Of a DNA stretch of 64,000 nucleotides, positions 590 through 36,260 are shown piece after piece; positions within the stretch are counted from its first letter, which is position 1, and each line of letters starts with the position of its first letter. The notes below the pieces were generated by a model, which ran no database searches, was not told the DNA's origin, and was given only the letters and a program-made list of their open reading frames with translations. The translations under genes and the position numbers were made by a program. The DNA comes from Arenicola marina (taxonomy: Eukaryota > Annelida > Polychaeta > Arenicolidae), in assembly GCA_964019135.1 (NCBI GenBank), contig OZ025256.1, positions 2,418,001 through 2,482,000 on the forward strand, written 5' to 3'.

Positions 590-650
590 CTTGACATTGG
601 TGTACGCACCACCGACCTTCTCTTCAAACGACTTGAACGTGTTTGAATTT
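590..650 (-). CDS. TPD52-family exon D (TFKSFEEKV motif); last exon in the window
   Basis: Acceptor gttctttcgcag|AAATTC, donor GTCAAG|gtgagtg, 61 nt, phase 2 in and 0 out. It encodes NSNTFKSFEEKVGGAYTNVK. NSxTFKSFEEKV is the best conserved short motif of the D52 family (NSPTFKSFEEKV in vertebrates), so the call is strong. The remaining C-terminus, usually a few dozen polar residues, must lie beyond position 1; I see no further exon in 1-589. Confidence 0.93.
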
Positions 651-3039: not shown

Positions 3040-3108
3040 CTCACGTCCCCAAATTTCTTCGAAGCAAACTGGCCAAAGGACTTGAATGCCTGGTTCGTCT
3101 TTTGGTAC
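3040..3108 (-). CDS. TPD52-family exon C (conserved KKFGDVR segment)
   Basis: Acceptor ctctcttacag|GTACC, donor GTGAG|gtaaga, 69 nt, phase 2 on both sides. It encodes YQKTNQAFKSFGQFASKK and then FGDVR. The second part matches AFSNVGTAISKKFGDMR of TPD52L1 closely (AF, G, SKKFGD, R). The opening YQKTN matches the start of the same vertebrate exon, but about 11 residues between the two parts are missing compared with vertebrates. Exon A, if spliced in before it, would supply a segment of that kind. The phase joins cleanly to exon D. Confidence 0.9.
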
Positions 3109-3420
3109 CTGTAAGAGAGAGAAGAATAAGAGTTGATAAGGTTGACAATAGTAAGCGCGGTTTATTAAAGTGGACATAAAATAAGAACAGATGGATAACG
3201 GAACACAACCCGTACGAAGTATTCATTAATTTAGTGCATTTTTGTGATAGCTCTTTTTCGTCTTTTTAAATATTTTAAATAGTTAGGTAAGCTACGTGAA
3301 TCGAAGTATATAACTAAGGCGACTATGTACGTGGGGGGGAGGGGGGAGGGGGGGGAGGGTGATCACGACGATTTGAGTAGTTCCCACGTCAACAACGTGA
3401 CTTCTAGACTTGTAGCTGAA

Positions 3421-4600
3421 CAATCAGTGAATGATCTACCACAGAACAGACAGCTGACCGAAGTCAATCAGTGAATGATCTACCGCAGAACAGACAGCTG
3501 ACTGAAGTCAATCAGTGGATGATCTACCACAGAACAGACAGCTGACCGAAGTCAATCAGTGGATGATTTACCACAGAACAGACAGCTGACCGAAGTCAAT
3601 CAGTGGATGATCTACCACAGCACAGACAGCTGACCGAAGTCAATCAGTGAATGATCTACCACAGAACAGACAGCTGACCGAAGTCAATCAGTGAATGATC
3701 TACCACAGAACAGACAGCTGACCGAAGTCAATCAGTGGATGATCTACCACAGCACAGACAGCTGACCGAAGTCAATCAGTGAATGATCTACCACAGCACA
3801 GACAGCTGACCGAAGTCAATCAGTGAATGATCTACCACAGCACAGACAGCTGACCGAAGTCAATCAGTGAATGATCTACCACAGCACAGACAGCTGACCG
3901 AAGTCAATCAGTGGATGATCTACCACAGCACAGACAGCTGACCGAAGTCAATCAGTGAATGATCTACCACAGAACAGACAGCTGACCGAACTCAATCAGT
4001 GGGTGGTCTACCACAGAACAGACAGCCGACTGAAGTCAATCAGTGAATGATCTACCACAGAACAGACAGCCGACTGAAGTCAATCAGTGGATGATCTACC
4101 ACAGAACAGACAGCTGACTGAAGTCAATCAGTGCATGATCTACCACAGAACAGACAGCTGACCGAAGTCAATCAGTGGATGATCTACCACAGAACAGACA
4201 GCTGACCGAAGTCAATCAGTGGATGATCTACCACAGAACAGACAGCTGACCGAAGTCAATCAGTGGATGACCTACCACAGAACAGACAGCTGACCGAAGT
4301 CAATCAGTGGATGATCTACCACAGAACAGACAGCTGACCGAAGTCAATCAGTAAAAGATCTACCACAGAACAGACAGCCGACTGAAGTCAATCAGTGAAT
4401 GATGTACCACAGAACAGACAGCCGACTGAAGTCAATCAGTGGATGATCTACCACAGAACAGACAGCTGACTGAAGTCAATCAGTGGATGATCTACCGCAG
4501 AACAGACAGCTGACTGAAGTCAATCAGTGGATGATCTACCACAGAACAGACAGCTGACCGAAGTCAATCAGTGGATGATCTACCACAGCACAGACAGCGG
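3421..4600 (+). repeat. 44-bp minisatellite (TPD52 intron)
   Basis: About 27 units containing GATCTACCACAGAACAGACA, then GCTGACCGAAGTCAATCAGT. Variants (GAATG/GGATG, AACAG/CACAG, ACCG/ACTG) are arranged in patches. It lies between exons C and A. The second block copy is at 9432-9985. Confidence 0.95.
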
Positions 4601-4960
4601 AGTATGAGACTGATGGGCTGATACCCGTATGTCGACTGACAACCCTCCGCGCTTCGCCACTGACACCGCTATGGACGACACAACCACCAACAGCGTGGAC
4701 GGGGGATGGGGGCAGTCTACACGTGTATACCAGAGATACGGCCTCGGTATAACCGAGGGAAGGCAGCCACGGCTCTGAGTCTTGATAGTAGCAACATCAA
4801 ATGTCCTCGTTACATAAGCGCTTAGGTGGCCATCACTTGAGCGGGATCTCACGTTTCTCGTTTAAAGACTTCGGTTCTGATGGTTCTATAGACTTAACGT
4901 TTAATGCTGATGGTTCCGTCTGCTCTAAACACTTTGGCTCTTTGGCCTTCTTCCTCTAAG

Positions 4961-5290
4961 AACTTCCACTCTAACTGTCAGACCTTAGAACTTCCACTCT
5001 GACTGTCATAGACCTTAGAACTTCCACTCTTACTGTCATAGACCTTAGAACTTCCACTCTTACTGCCATAGACTTTAGAACTTTCACTCTTGCTGTCATA
5101 GACCTTCGAACTTCGACTCTTACTGTCATAGACCGTAGAGCTTTCACTCTTACTGTCATAGACTTTAGAACTTCCACTCTTACTGCCATAGACTTTAGAA
5201 CTTCCACTCTGACTGCCATAGACCTTAGAACTTCCACTCTTACTGTCATGCACTTTAGAACTTCCACTCTTACGGTCATAGACCTCGGTT
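4961..5290 (-). repeat. 30-bp minisatellite, left copy
   Basis: About 11 units of CCTTAGAACTTCCACTCTTA plus CTGTCATAGA. Because 30 is a multiple of three, open frames of about 100 codons with a 10-residue period (such as MTVRVEVLRS) run through it. They are not genes. Confidence 0.93.
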
Positions 5291-5667
5291 TTTACTGTCC
5301 TCGTCAAAGTTTGTTCTTCCTGTTAGTCTTTGAGTAAACTGTTCTCCTCTGCGATTAAGGCTTTGCCTCCTGTTGCCATCATCCACTGCTTTACGCCTGA
5401 GTAATTTGTTTGGTTTTCTATGGTCAGACGTAATACATTTATAATATGCAAAGCGCAATAAAAGTACCTGTCTACAATCGCGAAACAGAAACAAAAAATA
5501 AGGATATGAACTCAATAATTAAAACGTGATGTACAACCAACACAAAGCAAACACGAAATAAATAAGTCAGACAAGCCTCCACACAACCTCGCTTCGCTGT
5601 GGCGGGGAAACCGAAGTCACGGAGTACACTGAAGCATGCAAACTGATTTCAAAATGGACCCACTCAC

Positions 5668-5727
5668 GCTTGTGACGTCGAGACTGTCTCTGAGATCTGG
5701 CTTAACTTGTCGTTTGTCTTTTGGTAC
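5668..5727 (-). CDS. TPD52-family cassette exon A (20 residues, phase 2-2)
   Basis: Acceptor cccaaccag|GTACC, donor ACAAGC|gtgagtg, 60 nt, symmetric phase 2. It encodes YQKTNDKLSQISETVSTSQA, which resembles the vertebrate core segment YKKTSETLSQAGQKASAA (Y, KT, LSQ and a late S and A in register). The first 11 bases (GTACCAAAAGA) are the same as in exon C, and the next several nearly so. With B it makes a pair of equal-length cassettes. Either may be optional, or they may be used in turn; the sequence alone cannot say which. Confidence 0.85.
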
Positions 5728-5960
5728 CTGGTTGGGAGAGGGTATATTTAATGGCAGGCCACAGATGGGGGGCGGGGGTGGGGGGGGGGGGAGTGATAGT
5801 GGGCAGTAGTAGCAACGCTGACACAGACCCACAATACATTTGTGGCGGTTTTTATGCATGATGAGAGCAGACAGTGATGGGGAGAACAGATAGTTAAAAT
5901 AGCACAGGGGGGTGGGTGGGTGGGTGGGTGGAGGGTGAGGACCAGCTGAAACAAAAGCCC

Positions 5961-5963
5961 TGG

Positions 5964-5996
<33 letters not shown>

Positions 5997-6125
5997 CGGT
6001 GATGATGATGACGGTGGTGATGATGACGGTGATGATGATGACGGTGATGATGATGATGGTGATGATGATGATGATGATGATGATGATGACGGTGATGATG
6101 ATGATGATGATGACGGTGATGATGC
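5961..6125 (+). repeat. GAT/GACGGT microsatellite, left copy
   Basis: A (GAT)n run with interspersed GACGGT. The right copy (11342-11374) is only about 30 bases long and lacks the GACGGT interruptions, the largest length difference between the blocks. Confidence 0.95.
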
Positions 6126-6844
6126 AGTATGAAGATGGATGAAGCCACATAGGGATCCTAGCCTTGGGTGTCGTCGTAATGAAATAAATAAATGACTGGA
6201 CGCATTATTATGACGTGAAGGCCAGAGACAACGCCTTCCTTACATGATCCCCAACTCCTGCCCTACTAGAAAAAATCAAAACAGCAAACAAAGAATCGAT
6301 TAAGGCACCAGGGGCCAAGTTTCACGTACATAATCTAGCCCGCTACGGGGCCTAGTCGGCTAGAATCGCCCATCATTTGCATGGTAACTTCAGCCGACTA
6401 AGTCCCGCAGTCGGCTACACTGCGTTCGTGAAATCCGCTGCATGAATATACACAGGACGGACGTCAGCAGAACCACAGGACTGCATAACGCCGGCCATGT
6501 TCATTGTAATGGGCCATGGCGAACAGTTAGGGTGTGCTGCCGTTGTTGTGGCTGTAGTTGGGAAAGCCGGCGTGCTTAGGATGGTAAGTCCACAACGCAC
6601 CGACAAAGAACGGATAAACGACAAACTGACAATCGACAAACCGTAACCTATCGACACCAGGAATGTCAAGAAAGGACAGGAAGAAGTTGGTCGTTTAGGG
6701 CCACTTTTAAGCATATATAAGAGGTTAAATTGGGACAGTAGACCTCGCCAGATACGGGCACCAGGGCTACATACTTCGCCATCAAACAGGATATTAGCAT
6801 GGGGCAGGGCGAAATATTCCACAACTTTCGAACTTACGGGTCCA

Positions 6845-6905
6845 TGGCTCGTACCCACGGCCTGTTAATCTGCAGCCCAGCCTGCTTACCGACTAAGCTT
6901 ACATT
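6845..6905 (-). mobile_element. tRNA-derived SINE head, family 2
   Basis: On the minus strand, AGTCGGTAAGCAGGCTGGGC resembles a tRNA A-box region. It is followed by CTGCAGATTAACAGGCCGTG and a B-box-like GGGTACGAGCC. The same piece is at 12096-12156 (block copy), and a better preserved relative is at 57279-57344. Confidence 0.55.
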
Positions 6906-6909
6906 AGTA

Positions 6910-7370
6910 CAGGGTTCATACAGGCAAGGTTCCATCAAATTCAAGCCGTTTTAAGGCAAGCACTAGAAAACTTTAAGGACTTTTCAAGGACAATTTTTAC
7001 ATTCTCTGGTCTATTTTAAGCATACAAATTGCAAAACTTGGGACTAAATTTTATGTATACAATCTTTGATATGCGGAAATAAGGAATGACAAGAAGGCAG
7101 TCACTCTACGTTTATTTATTACCAACCAACAGCATTTATTGAAGTTTTATTAATTGCTACTTCTTCAATTCAGCCAGCTTTTGTTCGATTTTTTCTTGGG
7201 TCTTTGCCAGTGCCCGGTCCAGTTTGAAATCAAGCACTTTTCATTGTAACTTCCCTATTTTCAAGCAAATTCCAGTACATTGGATCGATCTCAAGGCCCA
7301 TTTCTGTTTTTATGACCTTTTCCAGGCATCAGTCAAAATTCAAGCACTTTTCATGCCTGTGCGCAACCTG
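6910..7370. mobile_element. Non-autonomous DNA transposon (hAT-like termini), copy 1
   Basis: A 461-bp element with ends CAGGGTTCATACAGGCAAG and, inverted, CAGGTTGCGCACAGGCATG. The internal DNA is rich in CAAG/TTTC motifs (CAAGCACTTTTC occurs several times) and has no coding capacity. TAGTA flanks both ends. CAGGG termini suggest the hAT superfamily, but the target duplication looks shorter than the usual 8 bp. Confidence 0.75.
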
Positions 7371-7962
7371 TAGTAGAACTGTTTGTGCTGTTTCTGCCTT
7401 GAATTAGTATTTACACATGTACGATGGGCTGGAGGCCAGCCGCCTAGTACCGAATAAATTACTACTTCTCCTCCTTATTCAATGACCAGGTCGTCTTTGC
7501 TGTTAGGAGTATGTACACAAGGGTCTGACAGCATAATACGTCAGCAATCAAAACACCAATAACTTAATCAAACACTACAACATAGCACCGAAATATCATT
7601 AGACGATGAGCGGAGAATACAATAGCAAAGCCGTTTTAGCTAAACTCCCGACGTATCCTATTCTGTTTACCAATATCAGTATTTTGTGTCCTGTAGATAG
7701 CTTAACGCAATTTTCATTTCTGAATCTAATGCTTGTATGTTAATTGGAAACAAAGTTGTGCAAATATGTGTATAGGTGTCACAGGGTAATTGCAAGAGAA
7801 CGATTAAAAGCAATCATGTTATATACATAATGCACAATTGATAAACTGCATGAATCAAACACATTTTCACGAAGAGACAGAAGGAAGAGTGTAATAAAAA
7901 TTATGAAAAACAACTGAGAAATAATTTTGGAGAGATAAAAACATATTAAACTCTTCACTCAC
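7371..7962. other. Intronic DNA between the transposon and exon B
   Basis: AT-rich unique sequence, duplicated at 12622-13213 in the right block. Nothing recognised. Confidence 0.6.
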
Positions 7963-8022
7963 GCTGAATTACTCGTAATTTTCGTATTCAATTTATGCAG
8001 TTGTTCATTCGTTTTCCTGTAC
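7963..8022 (-). CDS. TPD52-family cassette exon B (20 residues, phase 2-2)
   Basis: Acceptor gcttttcag|GTACAGG, donor TCAGC|gtgagtg, 60 nt, symmetric phase 2. With the flanking split Ala codon it encodes YRKTNEQLHKLNTKITSNSA. This aligns without gaps to the 20-residue alternative exon of vertebrate TPD52L2 (recalled as YVKTSEKLGEWNEKVTQSDL), sharing Y, KT, E, L, N, K, T and S at the same positions. In vertebrates that exon is optional, so exon skipping is expected here too. Including or omitting it does not shift the frame. Its function is not known from sequence; in the family, spliced segments here alter partner binding. Confidence 0.85.
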
Positions 8023-8248
8023 CTGAAAAGCGGAAACAAGAAAAAATAAGTCGCAAATAAACAGACGATGAGCTAAGCCTTTCGACGTCCAGTCCCACAC
8101 AAAAAAAAACAAACAAAAACAGACGCCATGCAGCAACAAGGTCAAGCAGGGTCAAGGTTATTTCGAAGAAGGTCAAGGTCATACGTTGTTCTTCTATTAT
8201 GTTATTAGTATAAACATCGGCACACTGGTGTCAAATCTCTTCGGGGGA

Positions 8249-8480
8249 CCGGCTCGATAGCTCAGTGGGTTAAAGCGCTCGCCTTGAGTGCTCTGGCCAC
8301 CTGAGAGCCTAACGGCACGTGGATCGGTGGTTCGGTCCTATCGCGTCAATGGGAGAAGGAAGGAAGAGTGGAGCCATGTCCCCGGGGGTAACCCCCTACT
8401 CTTTGCGAAGAAGGACGTGGGATCTTTATCCTGCGACCACACAGACAGGGCCACAGCGGGGCTGTGTCATGAGGCATAGC
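8249..8480 (+). mobile_element. tRNA-derived SINE family 1, internally inverted copy
   Basis: The tRNA-related head runs forward (GGCTCGATAGCTCAGTGGGT, AAGCGCTCGCC, then GTGGATCGGTGGTTCG). From there the body follows reversed: ATCGCGTCAATGGGAG, CCCCGGGGGTAACCCCC, GGATCTTTATCCTGCGACC, CCACAGCGGGGCT. In intact copies (40351-40600) the body reads the other way. The break lies at the B box. Confidence 0.8.
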
Positions 8481-8639
8481 GGACGGCGGCCTCGTTCAAG
8501 AGACAGCCTCCATGGCAACAACCAATAGCTCCACGGCAGGGTATCCCCGCTAAACTCTCCCCTAGCACCTAATCCTGAAATACATCAGAAACAAGGCCAA
8601 GCGAAGTGACAGCCTCGGCAACCAGATAAATGAATAGCG

Positions 8640-8730
8640 GGGAGAGGAGAGGAGAGGAGAAGGAGGGTGCGAGCGTGTGTGTGTGGCTGGGGTAGGGAGG
8701 GGGTAAGGGGGGGGGGCTAGGGGGAACGTC
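8640..8730 (+). repeat. GA/G-rich low-complexity tract
   Basis: GGAGAGGAGA units, a short GT run and a poly-G stretch. The counterpart at 13890-13975 has a G-run of different length. Confidence 0.8.
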
Positions 8731-9231: not shown

Positions 9232-9431
9232 NNNNNNNNNNNNNNNNNNNNNNNNNNNNNNNNNNNNNNNNNNNNNNNNNNNNNNNNNNNNNNNNNNNNN
9301 NNNNNNNNNNNNNNNNNNNNNNNNNNNNNNNNNNNNNNNNNNNNNNNNNNNNNNNNNNNNNNNNNNNNNNNNNNNNNNNNNNNNNNNNNNNNNNNNNNNN
9401 NNNNNNNNNNNNNNNNNNNNNNNNNNNNNNN
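9232..9431. other. Assembly gap, 200 Ns
   Basis: Exactly 200 Ns. On the left the sequence ends inside the 16/21-bp ATAGGG array. On the right it restarts inside the 44-bp array that already occurred at 3421-4600. The round size marks a scaffolding gap of unknown length. Confidence 0.99.
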
Positions 9432-11055: not shown

Positions 11056-11115
11056 GCTTGTGACGTCGAGACTGTCTCTGAGATCTGGCTTAACTTGTCG
11101 TTTGTCTTTTGGTAC
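11056..11115 (-). CDS. TPD52-family cassette exon A, second copy (probable assembly duplicate)
   Basis: Identical over all 60 nt to the exon at 5668-5727, with the same acceptor (cccaaccag|GTACC) and donor (ACAAGC|gtgagtg). It lies in the block right of the gap. The neighbouring GAT microsatellite is much shorter here than beside the first copy, which is the kind of difference alleles show. Its status depends on whether the block duplication is real. Confidence 0.6.

Positions 11116-11343: not shown

Positions 11344-11374
<31 letters not shown>
11342..11374 (+). repeat. GAT microsatellite, right copy
   Basis: A short uninterrupted (GAT)n run at the position of 5961-6125 in the other block. 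Confidence 0.9.
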
Positions 11375-11375
<1 letters not shown>

Positions 11376-13213: not shown

Positions 13214-13273
13214 GCTGAATTACTCGTAATTTTCGTATTCAATTTATGCAGTTGTTCATTCGTTTTCCTGTAC
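13214..13273 (-). CDS. TPD52-family cassette exon B, second copy (probable assembly duplicate)
   Basis: Identical over all 60 nt to the exon at 7963-8022, with the same splice sites (gcttttcag|GTACAGG and TCAGC|gtgagtg) and the same flanks. It lies in the near-identical block to the right of the 200-N gap. If the block is two overlapping contigs or two haplotypes, this is the same exon seen twice. If the duplication is real, the gene has two B cassettes, both usable in frame. Confidence 0.6.
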
Positions 13274-13499: not shown

Positions 13500-13731
13500 C
13501 CGGCTCGATAGCTCAGTGGGTTAAAGCGCTCGCCTTGAGTGCTCTGGCCACCTGAGAGCCTAACGGCACGTGGATCGGTGGTTCGGTCATATCGCGTCAA
13601 TGGGAGAAGGAAGGAAGAGTGGAGCCATGTCCCCGGGGGTAACCCCCTACTCTTTGCGAAGAAGGACGTGGGATCTTTATCCTGCGACCACACAGACAGG
13701 GCCACAGCGGGGCTGTGTCATGAGGCATAGC
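13500..13731 (+). mobile_element. tRNA-derived SINE family 1, inverted copy (block duplicate)
   Basis: The same inverted structure as 8249-8480, in the right block. Confidence 0.78.
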
Positions 13732-14280
13732 GGACGGCGGCCTCGTTCAAGAGACAGCCTCCATGGCAACAACCAATAGCTCCACGGCAGGGTATCCCCG
13801 CTAAACTCTCCCCTAGCACCTAATCCAGAAATACATCAGAAACAAGGCCAAGCGAAGTGACAGCCTCGGCAACCAGATAAATGAATAGCGGGGAGAGGAG
13901 AGGAGAGGAGAAGGAGGGTGCGAGCGTGTGTGTGTGGCTGGGGTAGGGAGGGGGTAAGGGGGGGGGGAGCTAGGGGGAACGTCGGGCGCCATATAGGGCA
14001 AGATTCTACAATGACAACGGCAGTAAATCTCCATGATGAGATTTCGCCAGCGAAGGAGTTCATTTCGCCGTGTTACGGTGACTCACGCGGTGATACAGCC
14101 TGGATGGGCCGGCAGAGATTACCGATGGCGTAAAAACGGAGGCAATAACAATACCATGGTTATAAGCGTCACTGATACAGATCTCGGCGAGATATAGATG
14201 GCAAGAGGAAATGACGTTAGAGCCGCGGAACCGCTGCGTTGACCCAACCAGACGACGTCAGCCAGTGCGCGCGGCCTAAC

Positions 14281-14925: not shown

Positions 14926-15600
14926 AAGACACACACCAAGACCTGTCCAGATCTTTTCATCGCCAAGATTTAGTTTACCGGAATGCCACGTGACTGTTGG
15001 GAATCAAGATAAAGTGGTCGATGCGGGTCACGCACTCCCAGCGCCCTGAACTATAGGATAGTCCTTGTGAACAGTGGAGGCTAGCACCACGTAGAATGGA
15101 CTAACGTTATCACTCGCCAGCTACGCAGGAAGTCAACTGCAATTGACTTCGGGCCTGAACAAAGAATTATCGGGCTAGAAGCAGATGACAACAATGTATT
15201 ATATGGAGGCGGGACCACAATAACCAGACCATCAGTATCGTGCCTTCTCCCTCCAGAACAACATCCATGGGCAGATTTATTCGTCAGATGTAGCTAGTGA
15301 CTGGGTGCGGGATGGGTTTCTCCCGATCTGATATCACAATGGACCACAGCCAAGCGAGCAGAGGAGGAGAACCCAGGGCGGAAAGCCTGTGGGCACTCCC
15401 TGCTGAACCCTGGGCAAAAACCAACACTTCACAGTGGTGAAGTTGTCCTCGGGCCATCACAACAGCCCGGGGGACCTCAAATTGTTGGCTGATGAAGTAA
15501 ACATTCTTTGAATTCTCCATCCGAGGGGGGCGGGAAAGGTCTAATAAGGGTGGAAATGCAAATAATCTCGGCTTGAAGTGTCTGGAGGATAGAGAGAACG
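14926..15600. other. Intronic DNA without a recognised feature
   Basis: Unique-looking sequence between two arrays. I see no exon with paired splice sites and D52 similarity, and no terminal repeats. Confidence 0.6.
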
Positions 15601-18600
15601 GGCGAGTGGCGGGGGCCGAGCGTGGTGGGAGCCGAGAGTGGCGGGGGCTGAGAGTGGCGGGGGCTGAGAGTGGCGGGGGCCGAGCGTGGTGGGGGCTGAG
15701 AGTGGCGGGGGGTGAGAGGGGCGGGGGCTGAGGGTGGCGGGGCTGAGAGTGGCGGGGGCCGAGAGTGGCGGGGGCTGAGAGTGGCGGGGCCGAAAGTGGC
15801 GGGGGCCGAGAGTGGCGGGGCCGAGAGGGGCGGGGGGTGAGAGTGGCGGGGGGTGAGAGTGGCGGGGGCCGAGAGTGGTGGGGGCTGAGAGTGGCGGGGG
15901 CTGACAGTGGCGGGGCTGACAGTGGCGGGGGCTGAGGGTGGCGGGGGCCGAGAGTGGCGGGGGCCGAAAGTGGCGGGGGCCGAAAGTGGCGGGGCCGAGA
16001 GTGGCGGGGGCCGAGAGTGGCGGGGGCCGAGAGTGGCGGGGTCCGAGGGTGGTGGGGGTTGAGGGTGGCGGGGGCCGAGAGAGGGGGGGGGGGGGCTGAG
16101 AGAGGCGGGGGCTACGAGTGGTGGGGGCTGAGAGTGGCGGGGTCTGAGAGTGGCGGGGGCCGAGAGAGGCTGGGGGTGAGAGTGGCGGGGGCCGAGAGTG
16201 GCGGGGGCCGAGAGAGGCTGGGGCTGAGAGTGGCGGGGGCCGAGAGTGGCGGGGCCGATAGTGGCGGGGGCTGAGAGTGGCGGGGGCTGACAGTGGCGGG
16301 GGCTGACAGTGGCGGGGGCTGACAGTGGCGGGGCCGAGAGTGGCGGGGCCGAGAGTGGCGGGGCCGAGAGTGGCGGGGGCTGAGAGTGGCGGGGGCCGAG
16401 AGTGGCGGGGGCTGAGAGTGGCGGGGGCTGACAGTGGCGGGGGCTGACAGTGGCGGGGGCTGACAGTGGCGGGGCCGAGAGTGGCGGGGCCGAGAGTGGC
16501 GGGGCCGAGAGTGGCGGGGGCTGAGAGTGGCGGGGGCCGACAGTGGCGGGGGCTGACAGTGGCGGGGGCTGACAGTGGCGGGGCCGAGAGTGGCGGGGCC
16601 GAGAGTGGCGGGGCCGAGAGTGGCGGGGGCCGAGAGTGGCGGGGGCTGAGAGTGGCGGGGGCCGAGAGTGGCGGGGTCCGAGAGTGGTGGGGGTTGAGGG
16701 TGGCGGGGGCCGAGATAGGGGGGGGGGGCTGAGAGTGGCGGGGGCTGAAAGTGGTGGGGGCTGAGAGTGGTGGGGGCTGAGAGTAGCGGGGGCCGAGAGT
16801 GGCGGGGGCTGAGAGTGGCGGGGGCTTAGAGTGGCGGGGGCTGACAGTGGCGGGGGCCGAAAGTGGCGGGGCCGAGAGTGGCGGGGGCCGAGAGTGGCGG
16901 GGGCCGAGAGTGGCTGGGGCTGAGGGTGGCGGGGGCCGACGGTAGCGGGGGCCGAGAGTGGCGGGGGCTGAGGGTGGCGGGGGCTGAAAGTGGTGGGGGC
17001 TGAGAGTGGCGGGGGCTGAGAGTGGCGGGGGCTGAGAGTGGCGGGGGCCGAGAGTGGCGGGGGCTGAGAGTGGCGGGGGCTGAGAGTGGCGGGGGCTGAC
17101 AGTGGCGGGGGCTGACAGTGGCGGGGGCTGAGAGTGGCGGGGGCTGAGAGTGGCGGGGGCTGAGAGTGGCGGGGGCCGAGAGTGGCGGGGGCCGAGAGTG
17201 GCGGGGGCCGAGAGTGGCTGGGGCTGAGGGTGGCGGGGGCCGAGGGTAGCGGGGGCCGAGAGTGGCGGGGGCTGAGGGTGGCGGGGGCTGAAAGTGGTGG
17301 GGGCTGAGAGTGGCGGGGGCTGAGAGTGGCGGGGGCTGAGAGTGGCGGGGGCCGAGAGTGGCGGGGGCTGAGAGTGGCGGGGGCTGAGAGTGGCGGGGGC
17401 TGACAGTGGCGGGGGCCGAGAGTGGCGGGGGCCGAGAGAGGCTGGGGCTGAGAGTGGCGGGGGCCGAGAGTGGCGGGGGCTGAGAGTGGCGGGGGCTGAG
17501 AGTGGCGGGGGCCGATAGTGGCGGGGGCTGAGAGTGGTGGGGGCTGAGAGTGGCGGGGGCCGAGAGTGGCGGGGGCTGAGAGTGGCGGGGGCTGACAGTG
17601 GCGGGGGCTGACAGTGGCGGGGGCTGACAGTGGCGGGGGCTGACAGTGGCGGGGCCGAGAGTGGCGGGGCCGAGAGTGGCGGGGGCTGACAGTGGCGGGG
17701 CTGACAGTGGCGGGGGCTGAGAGTGGCGGGGGCTGACAGTGGTGGGGGCTGACAGTGGCGGGGGCTGACAGTGGCGGGGGCTGAGAGTGGCGGGGGCTGA
17801 CAGTGGCGGGGCCGAGAGTGGCGGGGGCCGAGAGTGGCGGGGGCTGACAGTGGCGGGGGCTGACAGTGGCGGGGGCTGACAGTGGCGGGGCCGAGAGTGG
17901 CGGGGGCTGACAGTGGCGGGGCCGAGAGTGGCGGGAGCCGAGCGTGGCGGGGGCTGAGAGTGGTGGGGGCTGAGAGTGGCGGGGGCTGAGAGTGGCGGGG
18001 GCTGAGAGTGGCGGGGGGTGAGAGTGGCGGGGGCTGAGAGTGGCGGGGGCTGAGAGTGGTGGGGGCTGAGAGTGGCGGGGGCTGAGAGTGGCGGGGGCTG
18101 AGAGTGGTGGGGGCTGAGAGTGGCGGGGGCTGAGAGTGGCGGGGGGTGAGAGTGGCGGGGGCTGAGAGTGGCGGGGGCCGAGAGTGGCGGGGGCCGAGAG
18201 TGGCGGGGGCCGAGAGTGGCGGGGGCTGAGAGTGGTGGGGGCCGAGAGTGGCGGGGGCTGACAGTGGCGGGGGCTGACAGTGGCGGGGGCTGACAGTGGC
18301 GGGGCCGAGAGTGGCGGGGGCTGACAGTGGCGGGGCCGAGAGTGGCGGGAGCCGAGCGTGGCGGGGGCTGAGAGTGGTGGGGGCTGAGAGTGGCGGGGGC
18401 TGAGAGTGGCGGGGGCTGAGAGTGGCGGGGGGTGAGAGTGGCGGGGGCTGAGAGTGGCGGGGGCTGAGAGTGGTGGGGGCTGAGAGTGGCGGGGGCTGAG
18501 AGTGGCGGGGGCTGAGAGTGGTGGGGGCTGAGAGTGGCGGGGGCTGAGAGTGGCGGGGGGTGAGAGTGGCGGGGGCTGAGAGTGGCGGGGGCCGAGAGTG

Positions 18601-21600
18601 GCGGGGGCTGAGAGTGGCGGGGGCTGAGAGTGGCGGGGGCTGAGAGTGGTGGGGGCCGAGAGTGGCGGGGGCTGACAGTGGCGGGGGCTGACAGTGGCGG
18701 GGGCTGACAGTGGCGGGGCCGAGAGTGGCGGGGGCTGACAGTGGCGGGGCCGAGAGTGGCGGGAGCCGAGCGTGGCGGGGGCTGAGAGTGGTGGGGGCTG
18801 AGAGTGGCGGGGGCTGAGAGTGGCGGGGGCTGAGAGTGGTGGGGGCTGAGAGTGGCGGGGGCTGAGAGTGGCGGGGGCTGAGAGTGGTGGGGGCTGATAG
18901 TGGCGGGGGCTGAGAGTGGCGGGGGGGTGAGAGTGGCGGGGGCCGAGAGTGGCGGGGCCGAGAGTGGCGGGGGCCGAGAGTGGCGGGGGCTGAGAGTGGC
19001 GGGGGCCGAGAGTGGCGGGGTCCGAGAGTGGTGGGGGTTGAGGGTGGCGGGGGCCGAGATAGGGGGGGGGGGGCTGAGAGTGGCGGGGGCTGAAAGTGGT
19101 GGGGGCTGAGAGTGGTGGGGGCTGAGAGTAGCGGGGGCCGAGAGTGGCGGGGGCTGAGAGTGGCGGGGGCTGAGAGTGGCGGGGGCTGACAGTGGCGGGG
19201 GCCGAAAGTGGCGGGGCCGAGAGTGGCGGGGGCCGAGAGTGGCTGGGGCTGAGGGTGGCGGGGGCCGAGGGTAGCGGGGGCCGAGAGTGGCGGGGGCTGA
19301 GGGTGGCGGGGGCTGAAAGTGGTGGGGGCTGAGAGTGGCGGGGGCTGAGAGTGGCGGGGGCTGAGAGTGGCGGGGGCCGAGAGTGGCGGGGGCTGAGAGT
19401 GGCGGGGGCTGAGAGTGGCGGGGGCTGACAGTGGCGGGGGCTGACAGTGGCGGGGGCTGAGAGTGGCGGGGGCTGAGAGTGGCGGGGGCTGAGAGTGGCG
19501 GGGGCCGAGAGTGGCGGGGGCCGAGAGTGGCGGGGGCCGAGAGTGGCTGGGGCTGAGGGTGGCGGGGGCCGAGGGTAGCGGGGGCCCAGAGTGGCGGGGG
19601 CTGAGGGTGGCGGGGGCTGAAAGTGGTGGGGGCTGAGAGTGGCGGGGGCTGAGAGTGGCGGGGGCTGAGAGTGGCGGGGGCCGAGAGTGGCGGGGGCTGA
19701 GAGTGGCGGGGGCTGAGAGTGGCGGGGGCTGACAGTGGCGGGGGCCGAGAGTGGCGGGGGCCGAGAGAGGCTGGGGCTGAGAGTGGCGGGGGCCGAGAGT
19801 GGCGGGGGCTGAGAGTGGCGGGGGCTGAGAGTGGCGGGGGCCGATAGTGGCGGGGGCTGAGAGTGGTGGGGGCTGAGAGTGGCGGGGGCCGAGAGTGGCG
19901 GGGGCTGACAGTGGCGGGGGCTGACAGTGGCGGGGCCGAGAGTGGCGGGGCCGAGAGTGGCGGGGGCTGACAGTGGCGGGGCTGACAGTGGCGGGGGCTG
20001 AGAGTGGCGGGGGCTGACAGTGGTGGGGGCTGACAGTGGCGGGGGCTGACAGTGGCGGGGGCTGAGAGTGGCGGGGGCTGACAGTGGCGGGGCCGAGAGT
20101 GGCGGGGGCCGAGAGTGGCGGGGGCTGACAGTGGCGGGGGCTGACAGTGGCGGGGGCTGACAGTGGCGGGGCCGAGAGTGGCGGGGGCTGACAGTGGCGG
20201 GGCCGAGAGTGGCGGGAGCCGAGCGTGGCGGGGGCTGAGAGTGGTGGGGGCTGAGAGTGGCGGGGGCTGAGAGTGGCGGGGGCTGAGAGTGGCGGGGGGT
20301 GAGAGTGGCGGGGGCTGAGAGTGGCGGGGGCTGAGAGTGGTGGGGGCTGAGAGTGGCGGGGGCTGAGAGTGGCGGGGGCTGAGAGTGGTGGGGGCTGAGA
20401 GTGGCGGGGGCTGAGAGTGGCGGGGGGTGAGAGTGGCGGGGGCTGAGAGTGGCGGGGGCCGAGAGTGGCGGGGGCCGAGAGTGGCGGGGGCCGAGAGTGG
20501 CGGGGGCTGAGAGTGGTGGGGGCCGAGAGTGGCGGGGGCTGACAGTGGCGGGGGCTGACAGTGGCGGGGGCTGACAGTGGCGGGGCCGAGAGTGGCGGGG
20601 GCTGACAGTGGCGGGGCCGAGAGTGGCGGGAGCCGAGCGTGGCGGGGGCTGAGAGTGGTGGGGGCTGAGAGTGGCGGGGGCTGAGAGTGGCGGGGGCTGA
20701 GAGTGGCGGGGGGTGAGAGTGGCGGGGGCTGAGAGTGGCGGGGGCTGAGAGTGGTGGGGGCTGAGAGTGGCGGGGGCTGAGAGTGGCGGGGGCTGAGAGT
20801 GGTGGGGGCTGAGAGTGGCGGGGGCTGAGAGTGGCGGGGGGTGAGAGTGGCGGGGGCTGAGAGTGGCGGGGGCCGAGAGTGGCGGGGGCTGAGAGTGGCG
20901 GGGGCTGAGAGTGGCGGGGGCTGAGAGTGGTGGGGGCCGAGAGTGGCGGGGGCTGACAGTGGCGGGGGCTGACAGTGGCGGGGGCTGACAGTGGCGGGGC
21001 CGAGAGTGGCGGGGGCTGACAGTGGCGGGGCCGAGAGTGGCGGGAGCCGAGCGTGGCGGGGGCTGAGAGTGGTGGGGGCTGAGAGTGGCGGGGGCTGAGA
21101 GTGGCGGGGGCTGAGAGTGGTGGGGGCTGAGAGTGGCGGGGGCTGAGAGTGGCGGGGGCTGAGAGTGGTGGGGGCTGATAGTGGCGGGGGCTGAGAGTGG
21201 CGGGGGGTGAGAGTGGCGGGGGCCGAGAGTGGCGGGGCCGAGAGTGGCGGGGGCCGAGAGTGGCGGGGGCTGAGAGTGGCGGGGGCCGAGAGTGGCGGGG
21301 TCCGAGAGTGGTGGGGGTTGAGGGTGGCGGGGGCCGAGATAGGGGGGGGGGGCTGAGAGTGGCGGGGGCTGAAAGTGGTGGGGGCTGAGAGTGGTGGGGG
21401 CTGAGAGTAGCGGGGGCCGAGAGTGGCGGGGGCTGAGAGTGGCGGGGGCTGAGAGTGGCGGGGGCTGACAGTGGCGGGGGCCGAAAGTGGCGGGGCCGAG
21501 AGTGGCGGGGGCCGAGAGTGGCTGGGGCTGAGGGTGGCGGGGGCCGAGGGTAGCGGGGGCCGAGAGTGGCGGGGGCTGAGGGTGGCGGGGGCTGAAAGTG

Positions 21601-23239
21601 GTGGGGGCTGAGAGTGGCGGGGGCTGAGAGTGGCGGGGGCTGAGAGTGGCGGGGGCCGAGAGTGGCGGGGGCTGAGAGTGGCGGGGGCTGAGAGTGGCGG
21701 GGGCTGACAGTGGCGGGGGCTGACAGTGGCGGGGGCTGAGAGTGGCGGGGGCTGAGAGTGGCGGGGGCTGAGAGTGGCGGGGGCCGAGAGTGGCGGGGGC
21801 CGAGAGTGGCGGGGGCCGAGAGTGGCTGGGGCTGAGGGTGGCGGGGGCCGAGGGTAGCGGGGGCCCAGAGTGGCGGGGGCTGAGGGTGGCGGGGGCTGAA
21901 AGTGGTGGGGGCTGAGAGTGGCGGGGGCTGAGAGTGGCGGGGGCTGAGAGTGGCGGGGGCCGAGAGTGGCGGGGGCTGAGAGTGGCGGGGGCTGAGAGTG
22001 GCGGGGGCTGACAGTGGCGGGGGCCGAGAGTGGCGGGGGCCGAGAGAGGCTGGGGCTGAGAGTGGCGGGGGCCGAGAGTGGCGGGGGCTGAGAGTGGCGG
22101 GGGCTGAGAGTGGCGGGGGCCGATAGTGGCGGGGGCTGAGAGTGGTGGGGGCTGAGAGTGGCGGGGGCCGAGAGTGGCGGGGGCTGAGAGTGGCGGGGGC
22201 TGACAGTGGCGGGGGCTGAGAGTGGCGGGGGCTGACAGTGGCGGGGGCTGACAGTGGCGGGGCCGAGAGTGGCGGGGCCGAGAGTGGCGGGGGCTGACAG
22301 TGGCGGGGCTGACAGTGGCGGGGGCTGAGAGTGGCGGGGGCTGACAGTGGTGGGGGCTGACAGTGGCGGGGGCTGACAGTGGCGGGGGCTGACAGTGGCG
22401 GGGGCTGACAGTGGCGGGGCCGAGAGTGGCGGGGGCCGAGAGTGGCGGGGGCTGACAGTGGCGGGGGCTGACAGTGGCGGGGGCTGACAGTGGCGGGGCC
22501 GAGAGTGGCGGGGGCTGACAGTGGCGGGGCCGAGAGTGGCGGGAGCCGAGCGTGGCGGGGGCTGAGAGTGGTGGGGGCTGAGAGTGGCGGGGGCTGAGAG
22601 TGGCGGGGGCTGAGAGTGGCGGGGGCTGAGAGTGGCGGGGGCTGACAGTGGCGGGGGCTGACAGTGGCGGGGGCTGACAGTGGCGGGGGCTGACAGTGGC
22701 GGGGCCGAGAGTGGCGGGGGCTGACAGTGGCGGGGCCGAGAGTGGCGGGAGCCGAGCGTGGCGGGGGCTGAGAGTGGCGGGGGCTGAGAGTGGCGGGAGC
22801 CGAGCGTGGCGGGGGCTGAGAGTGGCGGGGGCTGACAGTGGCGGGGGCTGACAGTGGCGGGGGCTGACAGTGGCGGGGGCCGAGAGTGGCGGGGCTGACA
22901 GTGGCGGGGGCTGACAGTGGCGGGGGCTGACAGTGGCGGGGGCTGACAGTGGCGGGGGCCGAGAGTGGCGGGGGCCGAGAGTGGCGGGGCCGAGACTGGC
23001 GGGGCCGAGAGTGGCGGGGGCTGACAGTGGCGGGGCCGAGAGTGGCGGGGCCGAGAGTGGCGGGGCCGAGAGTGGCGGGGCCGAGAGTGGCGGGGGCTGA
23101 CAGTGGCGGGGGCTGACAGTGGCGGGGCCGAGACTGGCGGGGCCGAGAGTGGCGGGGGCTGACAGTGGCGGGGCCGAGAGTGGCGGGGCCGAGAGTGGCG
23201 GGGCCGAGAGTGGCGGGGCCGAGAGTGGCGGGGGCCGAG

Positions 23240-23389
23240 ATTACAAACAGGAGATTACCCCGGGCAATCGCTATCCTATTAATGGCCCGCTCTCCCTGCT
23301 CTCACTAAACCAAATGACCAGACCCGGGCGTCAAATCGATCCCCGGGCTGTAACAGGGGTCTGGGGGCCGCGCTTTAATCGCAAACCAC
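23240..23389 (+). repeat. Captured flank segment, copy 1
   Basis: 150 bp of non-satellite DNA (from ATTACAAACAGGAGATTACC to CGCTTTAATCGCAAACCAC) inside the array. The following satellite units are the same as after copy 2. Confidence 0.95.
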
Positions 23390-24230
23390 AGTGGCGGGGG
23401 CTGACAGTGGCGGGGCCGAGGGTGGCGGGGGCTGACAGTGGCGGGGGCTGAGAGGGGCGGGGGCTGAGAGTGGCGGGGGCTGAGAGTGGCGGGGGCTGAC
23501 AGTGGCGGGGGCTGACAGTGGCGGGGGCTGACAGTGGCGGGGGCTGAGAGTGGCGGGGGCTGAGAGTGGCGGGGGCTGACAGTGGCGGGGGCTGACAGTG
23601 GCGGGGGCTGACAGTGGCGGGGGCTGACAGTGGCGGGGGCTGAGAGTGGCGGGGGCTGAGAGTGGCGGGGGCTGAGAGTGGCGGGGGCTGAGAGTGGTGG
23701 GGGCTGAGAGTGGCGGGGGCTGACAGTGGCGGGGGCTGAGAGTGGCGGGGGCTGAGAGTGGCGGGGGCTGACAGTGGCGGGGGCTGACAGTGGCGGGGGC
23801 TGACAGTGGCGGGGCCGAGAGTGGCGGGGGCTGACAGTGGCGGGGCCGAGAGTGGCGGGAGCCGAGCGTGGCGGGGGCTGAGAGTGGCGGGGGCTGAGAG
23901 TGGCGGGAGCCGAGCGTGGCGGGGGCTGAGAGTGGCGGGGGCTGACAGTGGCGGGGGCTGACAGTGGCGGGGGCTGACAGTGGCGGGGGCCGAGAGTGGC
24001 GAGGCTGACAGTGGCGGGGGCTGACAGTGGCGGGGGCTGACAGTGGCGGGGGCTGACAGTGGCGGGGGCCGAGAGTGGCGGGGGCCGAGAGTGGCGGGGG
24101 CTGACAGTGGCGGGGGCTGACAGTGGCGGGGGCTGACAGTGGCGGGGGCTGACAGTGGCGGGGGCTGACAGTGGCGGGGCCGAGAGTGGCGGGGCCGAGA
24201 GTGGCGGGGCCGAGAGTGGCGGGGGCCGAG

Positions 24231-24380
24231 ATTACAAACAGGAGATTACCCCGGGCAATCGCTATCCTATTAATGGCCCGCTCTCCCTGCTCTCACTAAA
24301 CCAAATGACCAGACCCGGGCGTCAAATCGATCCCCGGGCTGTAACAGGGGTCTGGGGGCCGCGCTTTAATCGCAAACCAC
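24231..24380 (+). repeat. Captured flank segment, copy 2
   Basis: Identical to 23240-23389 as far as I can read. The spacing of about 990 bp marks a duplicated block of satellite plus insert. Confidence 0.95.
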
Positions 24381-24632
24381 AGTGGCGGGGGCTGACAGTG
24401 GCGGGGCCGAGGGTGGCGGGGGCTGACAGTGGCGGGGGCTGAGAGGGGCGGGGGCTGAGAGTGGCGGGGGCTGAGAGTGGCGGGGGCTGACAGTGGCGGG
24501 GGCTGACAGTGGCGGGGGCTGACAGTGGCGGGGCCGAGAGTGGCGGGGGCTGAGAGTGGCGGGGGCTGACAGTGGCGGGGGCTGACAGTGGCGGGGCCGA
24601 GAGTGGCGGGGCCGAGAGTGGCGGGGGCCGAG

Positions 24633-26104: not shown

Positions 26105-26253
26105 GCGTCCGACTCTTTGATGTTCTGCAGTCCCTGCTTAAGGTCGTGTTTGATCTCCACCATGGGTGTGATCCCGAGCTTCTTCTTGAGCTCAGAGGAC
26201 TGATAGACCTTGGCGGACAGCACGGTGCGCAGAGTCGAGATCTCCTCCTCCAG
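26105..26253 (-). CDS. TPD52-family gene, exon 3 (D52 coiled coil)
   Basis: This is the diagnostic exon of the gene. The acceptor is ccgccag|CTGGAGG and the donor GACGC|gtgagt; the length is 149 nt and the phases are 0 in, 2 out. It encodes LEEEISTLRTVLSAK, then SSELKKKLGITPMVEIKHDL and QGLQNIKESDA. Against human TPD52 (from memory: VEEEIQTLSQVLAAKEKHLAEIKR, then KLGINSLQELKQNIAKGW) the register is colinear without gaps, with the heptad leucines kept and KLGI conserved. The region forms the dimerising coiled coil of the family. The downstream phase (GC plus G of the next exon) gives Ala-Tyr, the same junction as SAYKKT in vertebrates. Downstream lies a very large intron that holds the 9-kb G-rich satellite. 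Confidence 0.93.
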
Positions 26254-26749: not shown

Positions 26750-27001
26750 CGGTTGGCTATTCAGGACGCTTTAACCACTTTTGATCATATCGCGTCCATG
26801 GGAGGAGGAATGGAGAGTGGAGCCATGTCTCCGGGGGTAATCCCCTACTCTTTGCGAAGAAAGACATGGGATCTTTATCCTGCGACCACACAGACATGGC
26901 CACAGCAGGGCTCGAACCACCGACCAACGTGCCGTTAGGCTCTCAGGTGACCAGACACTCAATGCGAGCGCTCTAGCCCACTGAGATGTCGCGCCGGCCC
27001 C
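26750..27001 (-). mobile_element. tRNA-derived SINE family 1, full copy with target-site duplication
   Basis: A full-length minus-strand copy: head with A and B boxes near 26910-26995, tail ending in the GCGTCCTGAATA type. It is flanked by a perfect 14-bp duplication, AAGTGTAAAGCGGT, at 26736-26749 and 27002-27015. It lies in the TPD52 intron between exons 2 and 3. Short frames in it are not genes. Confidence 0.92.
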
Positions 27002-27403: not shown

Positions 27404-27528
27404 CTTGGCCAGCTCTGACCTGTACTCCTCCTCCTGTCTGGCTCGTTCCACGGGGTCCATGTCTCGACTGGCCGCCGCATTGTCGTAATCCGGCGACGCC
27501 GTCTCGATGGTGTCGTAAAAACTGTCGT
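27404..27528 (-). CDS. TPD52-family gene, exon 2 (start of the D52 homology region)
   Basis: The acceptor is tactgttgcag|ACGAC and the donor is GCCAAG|gtgggt. The exon has 125 nt, entering in phase 1 and leaving in phase 0. It encodes an acidic stretch with a Tyr-rich segment (DSFYDTIETASPDY) followed by DPVERARQEEEYRSELAK. The last residues match the E-E-L-R-R-E-L-A-K that opens the D52 coiled coil in vertebrates. An internal ATG (MDPVE) also has a good context (GACATGG). It could start a short isoform of ordinary D52 length that does not use the long first exon. D52 proteins are small cytoplasmic coiled-coil adaptors that homo- and heterodimerise and act in membrane trafficking and lipid storage. 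Confidence 0.85.
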
Positions 27529-35062: not shown

Positions 35063-35319
35063 GAAGATGAATGAAGCACGAACCCCTAAATTCTCATTTC
35101 AAGGTATGATGTGACATTGGGGCATCTCACAACAAACAGCGGACAGAGACACCCTGGGGAACACACTATCAATGTGTGACACCGGGTTCAAACCATTTAT
35201 GTTCGTCGTTTGACTCCTGGATGTCTGGGCAACGATAACCCCCAATCCCCTACTACTTGAGTGGGGAGTTTCATGCACACAACACACGGACACGGACCAC
35301 CTTTTTTTTTATTGATTAC

Positions 35320-35983
35320 CTCTGTTGCCGAACGTCGAGCGGTCGGAGCTGGAAGTCCGGCTTCGCGATTTCTCCACCTGCTTCACATCCAGAATGAACT
35401 TCTCCGTGTCCTCCGACGATAGGTCTGGATCTCCCCTATTATCGTCCAGTTCCACCCCGACAAACTGCGCCGACGGCGGCGTCAAGTCCAGATCCTCCAC
35501 AAGGTCATCATCATCCCGCCCCGGAAGTGACGTCATCATCGAGGTGGCAGTCTTATTGTCCATGGGTTCGGCGCTGGCGCTACCGCTGGCGCTGGACGCC
35601 CTGTTTCTATTGTCCTCGTTTGATTTGCTCTTGCGCCGCTTTTGATTGTCGGATGCCGCGATGGCGGCGGCGGCTTCGTCCTCGGAGGAGAAGTCGGAGT
35701 CGCCGGTGTAGATGAGCTTCAGGTAGGCCGGGTAGTTCTTGGTGCCCTCCGTCACCAGCTTCTCGATCTTGTCCCGTGTCGTACCCTTCTTCCCGCGCCG
35801 CAGTCTGGCGGCCGTCACAGCGCCCGCCGCCGCCGACGACGACGACGGCGGCGGAGTGATATGTGGGCCGGGCAGCGGCGTCGTCTGTGACGCGGCCACG
35901 CCGCCGGGGAGGGAGGCTATGTTGACCGGGTTGGCGTTACTGTCGCGTTGCTCCGCCAGCGACGCCGGCGCGGTAGAGGCCAT
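35320..35983 (-). CDS. TPD52-family gene, first coding exon (long disordered N-terminus)
   Basis: The ATG at 35983 has a good context (G at -3, G at +4) and opens 221 codons plus one base. The exon ends at AACAGAG|gtaatc. Ending in phase 1 is exactly what exon 2 needs, since a G plus AC restores an Asp codon. The encoded region is low complexity: a Pro/Ser/Ala-rich start, a basic patch RLRRGKKGTTRDKIEK (about 60-75), two acidic SSED motifs of the casein-kinase-2 type (about 98 and 190), an NLS-like QKRRKSKS (about 113) and a Ser/Arg-rich end. I recognise no folded domain. It is far longer than the short N-termini of vertebrate D52 proteins. The link to exon 2 rests on strand, order and phase across a 7.8-kb intron; an alternative first exon, or a different gene, is possible. 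Confidence 0.65.
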
Positions 35984-36260
35984 GGCGCGACGCTCACGTC
36001 GACGCTGCCGCTGACACCGACACCGACGCCGGTACGGTGGGTGGCGGGGGGGGGGGGATGGATGGAGTGAGTGATGAGAAGGAGGGCGAGGGATCTAACC
36101 CTGACAGGTGCGACTCACTCCCCCCAGCGCGTGCTCAGGTAAACTGTTTCTGGTCAGGCGTTATCCGTACACGCGGCGCCAATTTATATATATCTAGGTT
36201 CTCGGTCAGAAAGTCACTGCAACGACAGCCACCTGTATGTAGTATATAAACATAGATCTA
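35984..36260 (-). promoter_or_regulatory. 5' UTR and possible promoter of the TPD52-family gene
   Basis: The DNA just upstream of the start codon is CpG-rich (several GACACCGAC-type repeats), continuing the GC-rich first exon. On the gene strand a TATATATAAATT run lies near 36180-36195, about 200 bases before the ATG, and could be a TATA element. A poly-G tract interrupts the leader at about 36045. The transcription start cannot be fixed from sequence. Confidence 0.3.

Follow-up and report, generated by a model that had tools for sequence, protein, structure and literature searches.

The closest described counterpart of the exons reported here is insert 2 of human TPD54, an optional segment at residues 106-125 (PMC12896813, Table 2). 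The sections consulted of this 2026 review describe insert 2 as restricted to TPD54 isoforms and its function as not clear, list none for human TPD52, TPD53, and TPD55, and report that TPD54 interacts more strongly with the insert-2-containing form (PMC12896813). The same sections place amphipathic helices of TPD54 at residues 101-120 and 141-158 (PMC12896813), and residues 83-125 are given as required for membrane binding in the part used of PMC8298100. The consulted part of PMC7039206 holds nothing on insert 2. The DNA analysed was a 64,000-nucleotide (nt) stretch of the Arenicola marina genome (scaffold C9, positions 2418001-2482000; hereafter the window), and it contained a vesicle-protein gene of the TPD52 family (PF04201) on the minus strand with the transcript order E1-E2-B-A-C-D-last exon. 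Analysis of the sequence indicates that this gene probably carries two insert-2-type exons, B and A, before the core exon C, with A and B optional or alternative and with the second copies of both exons found nearby (A' and B') being an assembly artefact.

The features of the locus, in window coordinates and in transcript order, were as follows.

27404-27460, minus strand, coding end of exon E1 (MDPVERARQEEEYRSELAK), the exon start lying further upstream; sequence reading and exact string placement
26105-26253, minus strand, exon E2 (LEEEISTLRTVLSAK...LQNIKESDA, with a GC end, phase 2); exact string placement
13214-13273, minus strand, B', second copy of exon B, 60 of 60 bases identical; exact string placement
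11056-11115, minus strand, A', second copy of exon A, 60 of 60 bases identical; exact string placement
9232-9431, assembly gap of 200 N
7963-8022, minus strand, exon B, 60 nt, insert-2 type, peptide YRKTNEQLHKLNTKITSNSA; exact string placement
5668-5727, minus strand, exon A, 60 nt, insert-2 type, peptide YQKTNDKLSQISETVSTSQA; exact string placement
3040-3108, minus strand, exon C, 69 nt, peptide YQKTNQAFKSFGQFASKKFGDVR, its final R completed by exon D; exact string placement
590-650, minus strand, exon D, (R)NSNTFKSFEEKVGGAYTNVK; exact string placement
about -3426, outside the window, minus strand, last exon (SKVRGSQSENNFQDALSTSAASDTEGATSAEVDTTAASTPKSSETEAVPL), presumably starting at SKV

Results of the profile search showed that exon E2 matched PF04201 at profile positions 15-66 with 50.4 bits (cut-off, 25 bits), while the joined B-A-C-D peptide matched with 39.9 bits and C-D alone with 32.6 bits. 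Members of the family show a coiled coil, then the D52 motif and the FKSFE(E/D) region; reading of the sequence gave the order E2 (LEEEISTLRTVLSAK..; putative coiled coil), AYxKT exons, and NSNTFKSFEEKV. The genome (867 Mb, 762 pieces) was searched with the joined exon peptide and gave 6 matches, every one in the TPD52-family locus, which is the sole TPD52-family gene found by the genome searches.

Exons B, A, and C were each preceded by AG and followed by GT, started with GTAC, and were open in phase 2, with phase 2 on both sides. Exact string placement showed that the coordinates, lengths (60, 60, and 69 nt), GTAC starts, and phase given in a preliminary description of the same DNA were correct. 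Exons E2, B, and A all ended in ...GC, and any of these donors joined to any of the B, A, or C acceptors produced GCG TAC (Ala-Tyr). The D52 motif, at whose heart this Ala-Tyr lies, is printed as AY(V/K)KTxETL in the consulted sections of PMC12896813. Because every such joining rebuilds GCG-TAC, the cassettes are interchangeable, and the claim that all cassette combinations keep the frame was confirmed from the phases and these junctions. The end of exon C, whose coding content was YQKTNQAFKSFGQFASKKFGDV plus AG, differed, since ...GTGAG with the A of exon D forms AGA (Arg). The in-frame isoforms, counted in amino acids from the internal Met of E1, were E2-C (162), E2-A-C (182), E2-B-C (182), and E2-B-A-C (202).

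All four isoforms containing C scored as members of PF04201 (C, 98.3 bits; A+C, 103.9 bits; B+C, 101.6 bits; B+A+C, 99.5 bits), while those lacking C scored 76.5 bits (A), 75.5 bits (B), and 65.5 bits (neither A nor B). Compared like for like, removal of C lowered the score by 26.1 to 32.8 bits, so C carries the core family match, to which A and B, as extras, add little or nothing. Across both strands of 304 kb, 1749 (1025 + 724) stretches of 60 or 69 nt bounded by AG and GT were open in phase 2, and five of them started with Y-x-K-T, namely exons B, A, and C along with A' and B'. No further cassette, that is, no other open phase-2 stretch of 60 or 69 nt with a YxKT start, was found in the 304 kb; six other YxKT motifs lay on the sense strand within 104 kb.

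The likeness between the exons was compared with a null set made up of the remaining 1744 open stretches from both strands of the 304 kb. The tails (residues 6-19) of A and B scored 14 against each other, a score reached by 4 and 2 of the 1744 null stretches in the two directions. The A-C tails scored -1 (276 and 72 null stretches) and the B-C tails scored -6 (461 and 258 null stretches). Over all 19 residues, A and C scored 27, reached by 0 of the 1744, because YQKTN is common to both. Nucleotide identity past the first 16 bases was 16/44 for A-B, 15/44 for A-C, and 15/44 for B-C. The preliminary description had treated the three exons as interchangeable members of one cassette family; the PF04201 scores and the null comparison set C apart as the core family exon and assign A and B to the insert-2 type. 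It had also taken 11 identical starting bases in A and C as a pointer to exon duplication. The sharing is real, although the count is in fact 12, and because the shared bases lie in the D52 motif, with only the 15/44 identity beyond it, they are weak evidence for duplication. The sharing does not indicate a recent copy, and an old common origin of A, B, and C is possible.

The human TPD54 sequence used here, taken to be correct, has its YVKT 20-mer at residues 106-125. Its length (206) is right, its insert-2 bounds agree, and it agrees with 9 of the 9 residues named in the consulted part of PMC8298100. Scored against insert 2 in this sequence, the tails (residues 6-19) reached 23 for A and 26 for B, and 0 of the 1744 null stretches reached either score in both directions, a similarity that extends beyond YxKT in both exons. 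Past residue 5, B scored 25 against insert 2 and 9 against the human TPD54 core exon. The placement also corresponded to that of insert 2, as A and B are both 60 nt, phase 2/2, and are inserted ahead of the core exon, directly after the residue that precedes the D52 tyrosine. The link made earlier to an optional 20-residue vertebrate exon is supported by the insert-2 bounds of 106-125 and the human Y-V-K-T at that position.

Splice sites were scored with consensus frequencies, and percentiles were taken among the AG or GT sites of the 304 kb. The acceptors scored 12.0 (B), 5.5 (A), 14.3 (C), 11.1 (D), and 5.7 (E2), and the donors 5.1 (E2), 5.0 (B), 5.0 (A), 10.3 (C), and 12.1 (D). The B acceptor was in the 99.9th percentile and the A acceptor, the weakest among the three YxKTN exons, in the 93.6th. 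The identical donors of A and B (AGC/GTGAGT) were in the 91.5th percentile, and the E1 donor (AAG/GTGGGT) was in the 99.7th. The weaker E2, B, and A donors have C at -1 because the shared Ala codon fixes that base. These strengths would suit constitutive use of C and D and regulation of B and A, with A being the exon most readily skipped; they are suggestive only, since E2, presumably constitutive, has splice sites as weak as those of A.

In the mechanism proposed, the two paralogous 20-residue exons B and A, which follow the coiled-coil exon E2 and precede the core exon C, would be optional or alternative and C would be constitutive. The use of 0, 1, or 2 cassettes would then make the membrane-binding stretch differ in length, charge, and phase, and this difference might change the affinity for, or choice of, small curved vesicles, or the choice of partners. 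Membrane binding needs human residues 83-125, and the helix at 101-120 overlaps insert 2. On these grounds insert 2 falls in the first membrane-binding stretch, where A and B would lie by homology, and a change in cassette number would alter that stretch. Partner choice is also conceivable because TPD54 with and without insert 2 differs in interaction strength. Tuning of the membrane-binding stretch would most likely be the role of A and B. It would be a considerable further step, and one we hold to be improbable, if this single TPD52 gene of a non-vertebrate had a real insert-2 cassette array (of two members, or of four should the copies across the gap prove genuine) acting as a graded dial, with 0 to 4 membrane-binding segments before the curvature-sensing core. 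If such a dial existed, insert-2-type exons would predate the split of vertebrate TPD52, TPD53, and TPD54, and would have been lost from TPD52 and TPD53, not gained in TPD54.

A special case of optional or alternative use is that A and B are mutually exclusive, one per mRNA before C, giving two proteins of equal length. The two exons have the same length, phase, and donor and similar peptides, and the one-cassette isoforms scored best against PF04201 (103.9 and 101.6 bits, versus 98.3 and 99.5 bits), but the score gap is just 2-6 bits, the B-A intron (2235 nt) is too long for simple steric exclusion, both cassettes joined stay in frame, and in human the insert-2 exon is either included or skipped, not exchanged; strict exclusion is thus a tentative option that we rate as doubtful. 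The absence of any alternative splicing, with B, A, and C all constitutive and a longer B-A-C protein produced, would agree with the splice sites of B, A, and C, all of which lie above the 90th percentile, and with B+A+C being a valid family member (99.5 bits). It is judged unlikely in view of the A acceptor, the weakest at 5.5 against 12.0 and 14.3, the C at -1 in the A and B donors (shared with the E2 donor), and the optional state of the human counterpart, TPD54 insert 2. That A and/or B are chance open stretches and not exons is hardly credible: in its favour, a B-A peptide lacking C and D gave no PF04201 match, but an insert-2 match like those of A and B occurred in 0 of the 1744 null pseudo-exons, and the five YxKT-starting stretches among the 1749 were these exons and their copies. 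Optional or alternative use of A and B before a constitutive C is retained as the probable arrangement.

The second copies A' and B' lie across the gap from A and B. The final 5.19 kb of the left contig (4044-9231) aligned to the first 5.09 kb of the right contig (9432-14522), with the alignments reaching the final base on the left side of the gap and the opening base on the right. Mismatches numbered 28 in 3932 aligned bases (0.7%) outside variable number tandem repeats (VNTRs) and 93 in 5046 overall, with exons and splice sites identical between the two copies. The right contig carried E1-E2-B'-A' and the left contig B-A-C-D and the last exon, so each contig alone fits one gene, and the assembly would be telling one gene with a single B and A twice. 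The ends of the overlap fell in two different VNTRs (44-bp and ~16-bp units). Length differences between the two copies included a TGA microsatellite of ~54 units (5964-6124) in one and ~11 units (11344-11375) in the other.

The pair A'/B' is very probably the other haplotype's copy, left by contig overlap as a false duplication. Were the duplication real, the locus would hold five YxKTN exons (B'-A'-B-A-C) with a recently doubled pair and, provided that every transcript includes C, as many as 16 in-frame combinations, an alternative that bears on the artefact part only. Two copies of ~5.1 kb in the same orientation on the same scaffold, with so few mismatches and identical exons, could be produced in that way. 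A real duplication would, however, have to place its junction exactly at the contig break, as the alignments reach the exact contig ends, and its copies end in different VNTRs, leaving no shared repeat for unequal crossing. The two copies also share one scaffold and are separated by the gap, as in false heterotype duplications; the consulted part of PMC9516828 lists such a gap among the marks of false duplications, and a genuine duplication is considered distinctly improbable. Since the overlap is probably a false haplotype duplication, cassette counts taken from the assembly are suspect. The three exons of the preliminary description and their placement stood, while its cassette count, which left out A' and B', was clouded by the apparent duplication at the gap. 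More generally, overlapping contig ends at a gap can mimic additional exons in a tandem array of cassettes, and counting in this assembly unaware of the overlap would give five YxKTN exons instead of three.

Overlap at arbitrary points was determined as a control, with 10-kb flanks and low-complexity masking (the gaps were tested with flanks of up to 20 kb, unmasked). It was seen at 3 of 91 points, all within ~3.7 kb (142,719-146,424 on the window scale, ~90-91% identity), presumably one tandem array. The absence of differences between the copies of A and B was considered as a sign of selection and set aside as uninformative, as 67% of 60-base windows and 52% of 102-base windows were also identical.

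Several results weigh against the account preferred here, of one TPD52 gene with two insert-2-type exons and an artefactual second pair. The PF04201 family search also matched C19 with 22.5 bits, and with 30.9 bits (over the cut-off) when its neighbours were included. This match was rejected as a second TPD52 gene because its sequence looks like a repetitive coiled coil of the LRRHLAT type, and the claim of a single TPD52 gene depends on that reading. None of the three other gaps in the 304 kb showed such an overlap (1 of 4 gaps in all, that at 9232-9431), so overlap is not a systematic feature of the assembly, a point that favours a real duplication. As 67% of 60-base windows likewise differ nowhere, the zero differences between the A and B copies say nothing on selection. 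The lack of a PF04201 match for the B-A peptide alone has been mentioned, and the four C-containing isoforms were hardly separated by the family score (98.3 to 103.9 bits), which for that reason cannot establish that A and B are optional. The insert-2 similarity is no better than the human TPD54 letters used for it, and past residue 5, A scored 18 against the human TPD54 core exon, little below its 22 against insert 2. The helical moments of A (0.27), B (0.36), and insert 2 (0.31) were reached by fractions of 0.106, 0.062, and 0.088 of shuffles, respectively, which is not significant and leaves A and B alone unremarkable; C had a moment of 0.41 (shuffle fraction 0.041), and C+D taken as one helix 0.09 (0.730).

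Repeats were abundant around the locus. A G-rich minisatellite of ~9 kb (15600-24600) occupied the E2-B' intron, with a unit of ~16 bp by eye (GGCTGAGAGTGGCGGG-like) and long stop-free frames on the minus strand. The introns from the cassette exons down to D were crowded by three more minisatellites, at 754-2274 (29-bp units), 3421-4598 (44-bp units), and 4959-5285 (30-bp units). An element with a tRNA-like start (GGCTCGATAGCTCAGTGGGTTAAAGCGCTCGCCT) was found at ~8240-8640 and ~13500-13880, in the two overlap copies, and a related piece at ~26780-27000 had the tRNA-like part reversed; by eye, the element is probably a short interspersed nuclear element (SINE). Upstream of the TPD52-family gene, a minus-strand open frame at 35309-36094 contained a Met followed by a charged Ser-rich stretch, and may represent either a separate gene or an extended 5' exon of this one.

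No report of a doubled insert-2 exon was found in the literature searched, and public automatic gene predictions may well list such isoforms. CG5174 is presumably the fly TPD52 homologue. Several transcripts of CG5174 are mentioned in the consulted part of PMC2669885. Two divergent insert-2-type exons outside vertebrates suggest that the exon is old, and A and B, one neutral and one basic, form a natural pair with which to ask what the insert governs, vesicle binding or the choice of partner.

Compared with the known systems, one TPD52-family gene was found here versus four in human, a number that by itself suggests an invertebrate. Insert 2 of TPD54, like A and B, has 20 residues and a Y-x-K-T start, and stands directly after Ala between the coiled-coil and ALPS parts; the junction letters are ...SSA/Y in human TPD54 and ...SDA/Y here. 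The charge is +3 for B, 0 for A, and -1 for insert 2 in the human sequence used, and TPD54 has one insert where this single gene has two paralogous ones. The TPD52 core exon with the D52 motif resembles C, with the motif start A-Y-Q-K-T followed by the ...KKFGDVR-NSNTFKSFEEKV region, while C, with 23 residues, is 11 shorter than the 34-residue TPD54 core exon (126-159 in the human sequence used). Insert 2 is present or absent by splicing according to the consulted sections of PMC12896813, and A and B would probably be optional too. The tandem exon duplications with alternative choice described in the part consulted of PMC9013439 (14-3-3zeta, Mhc, and tropomyosin, among others) likewise involve homologous, frame-neutral neighbouring exons. 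Unlike those cases, in which one duplicate or another is chosen, the duplicates here resemble optional inserts ahead of a distinct core exon.

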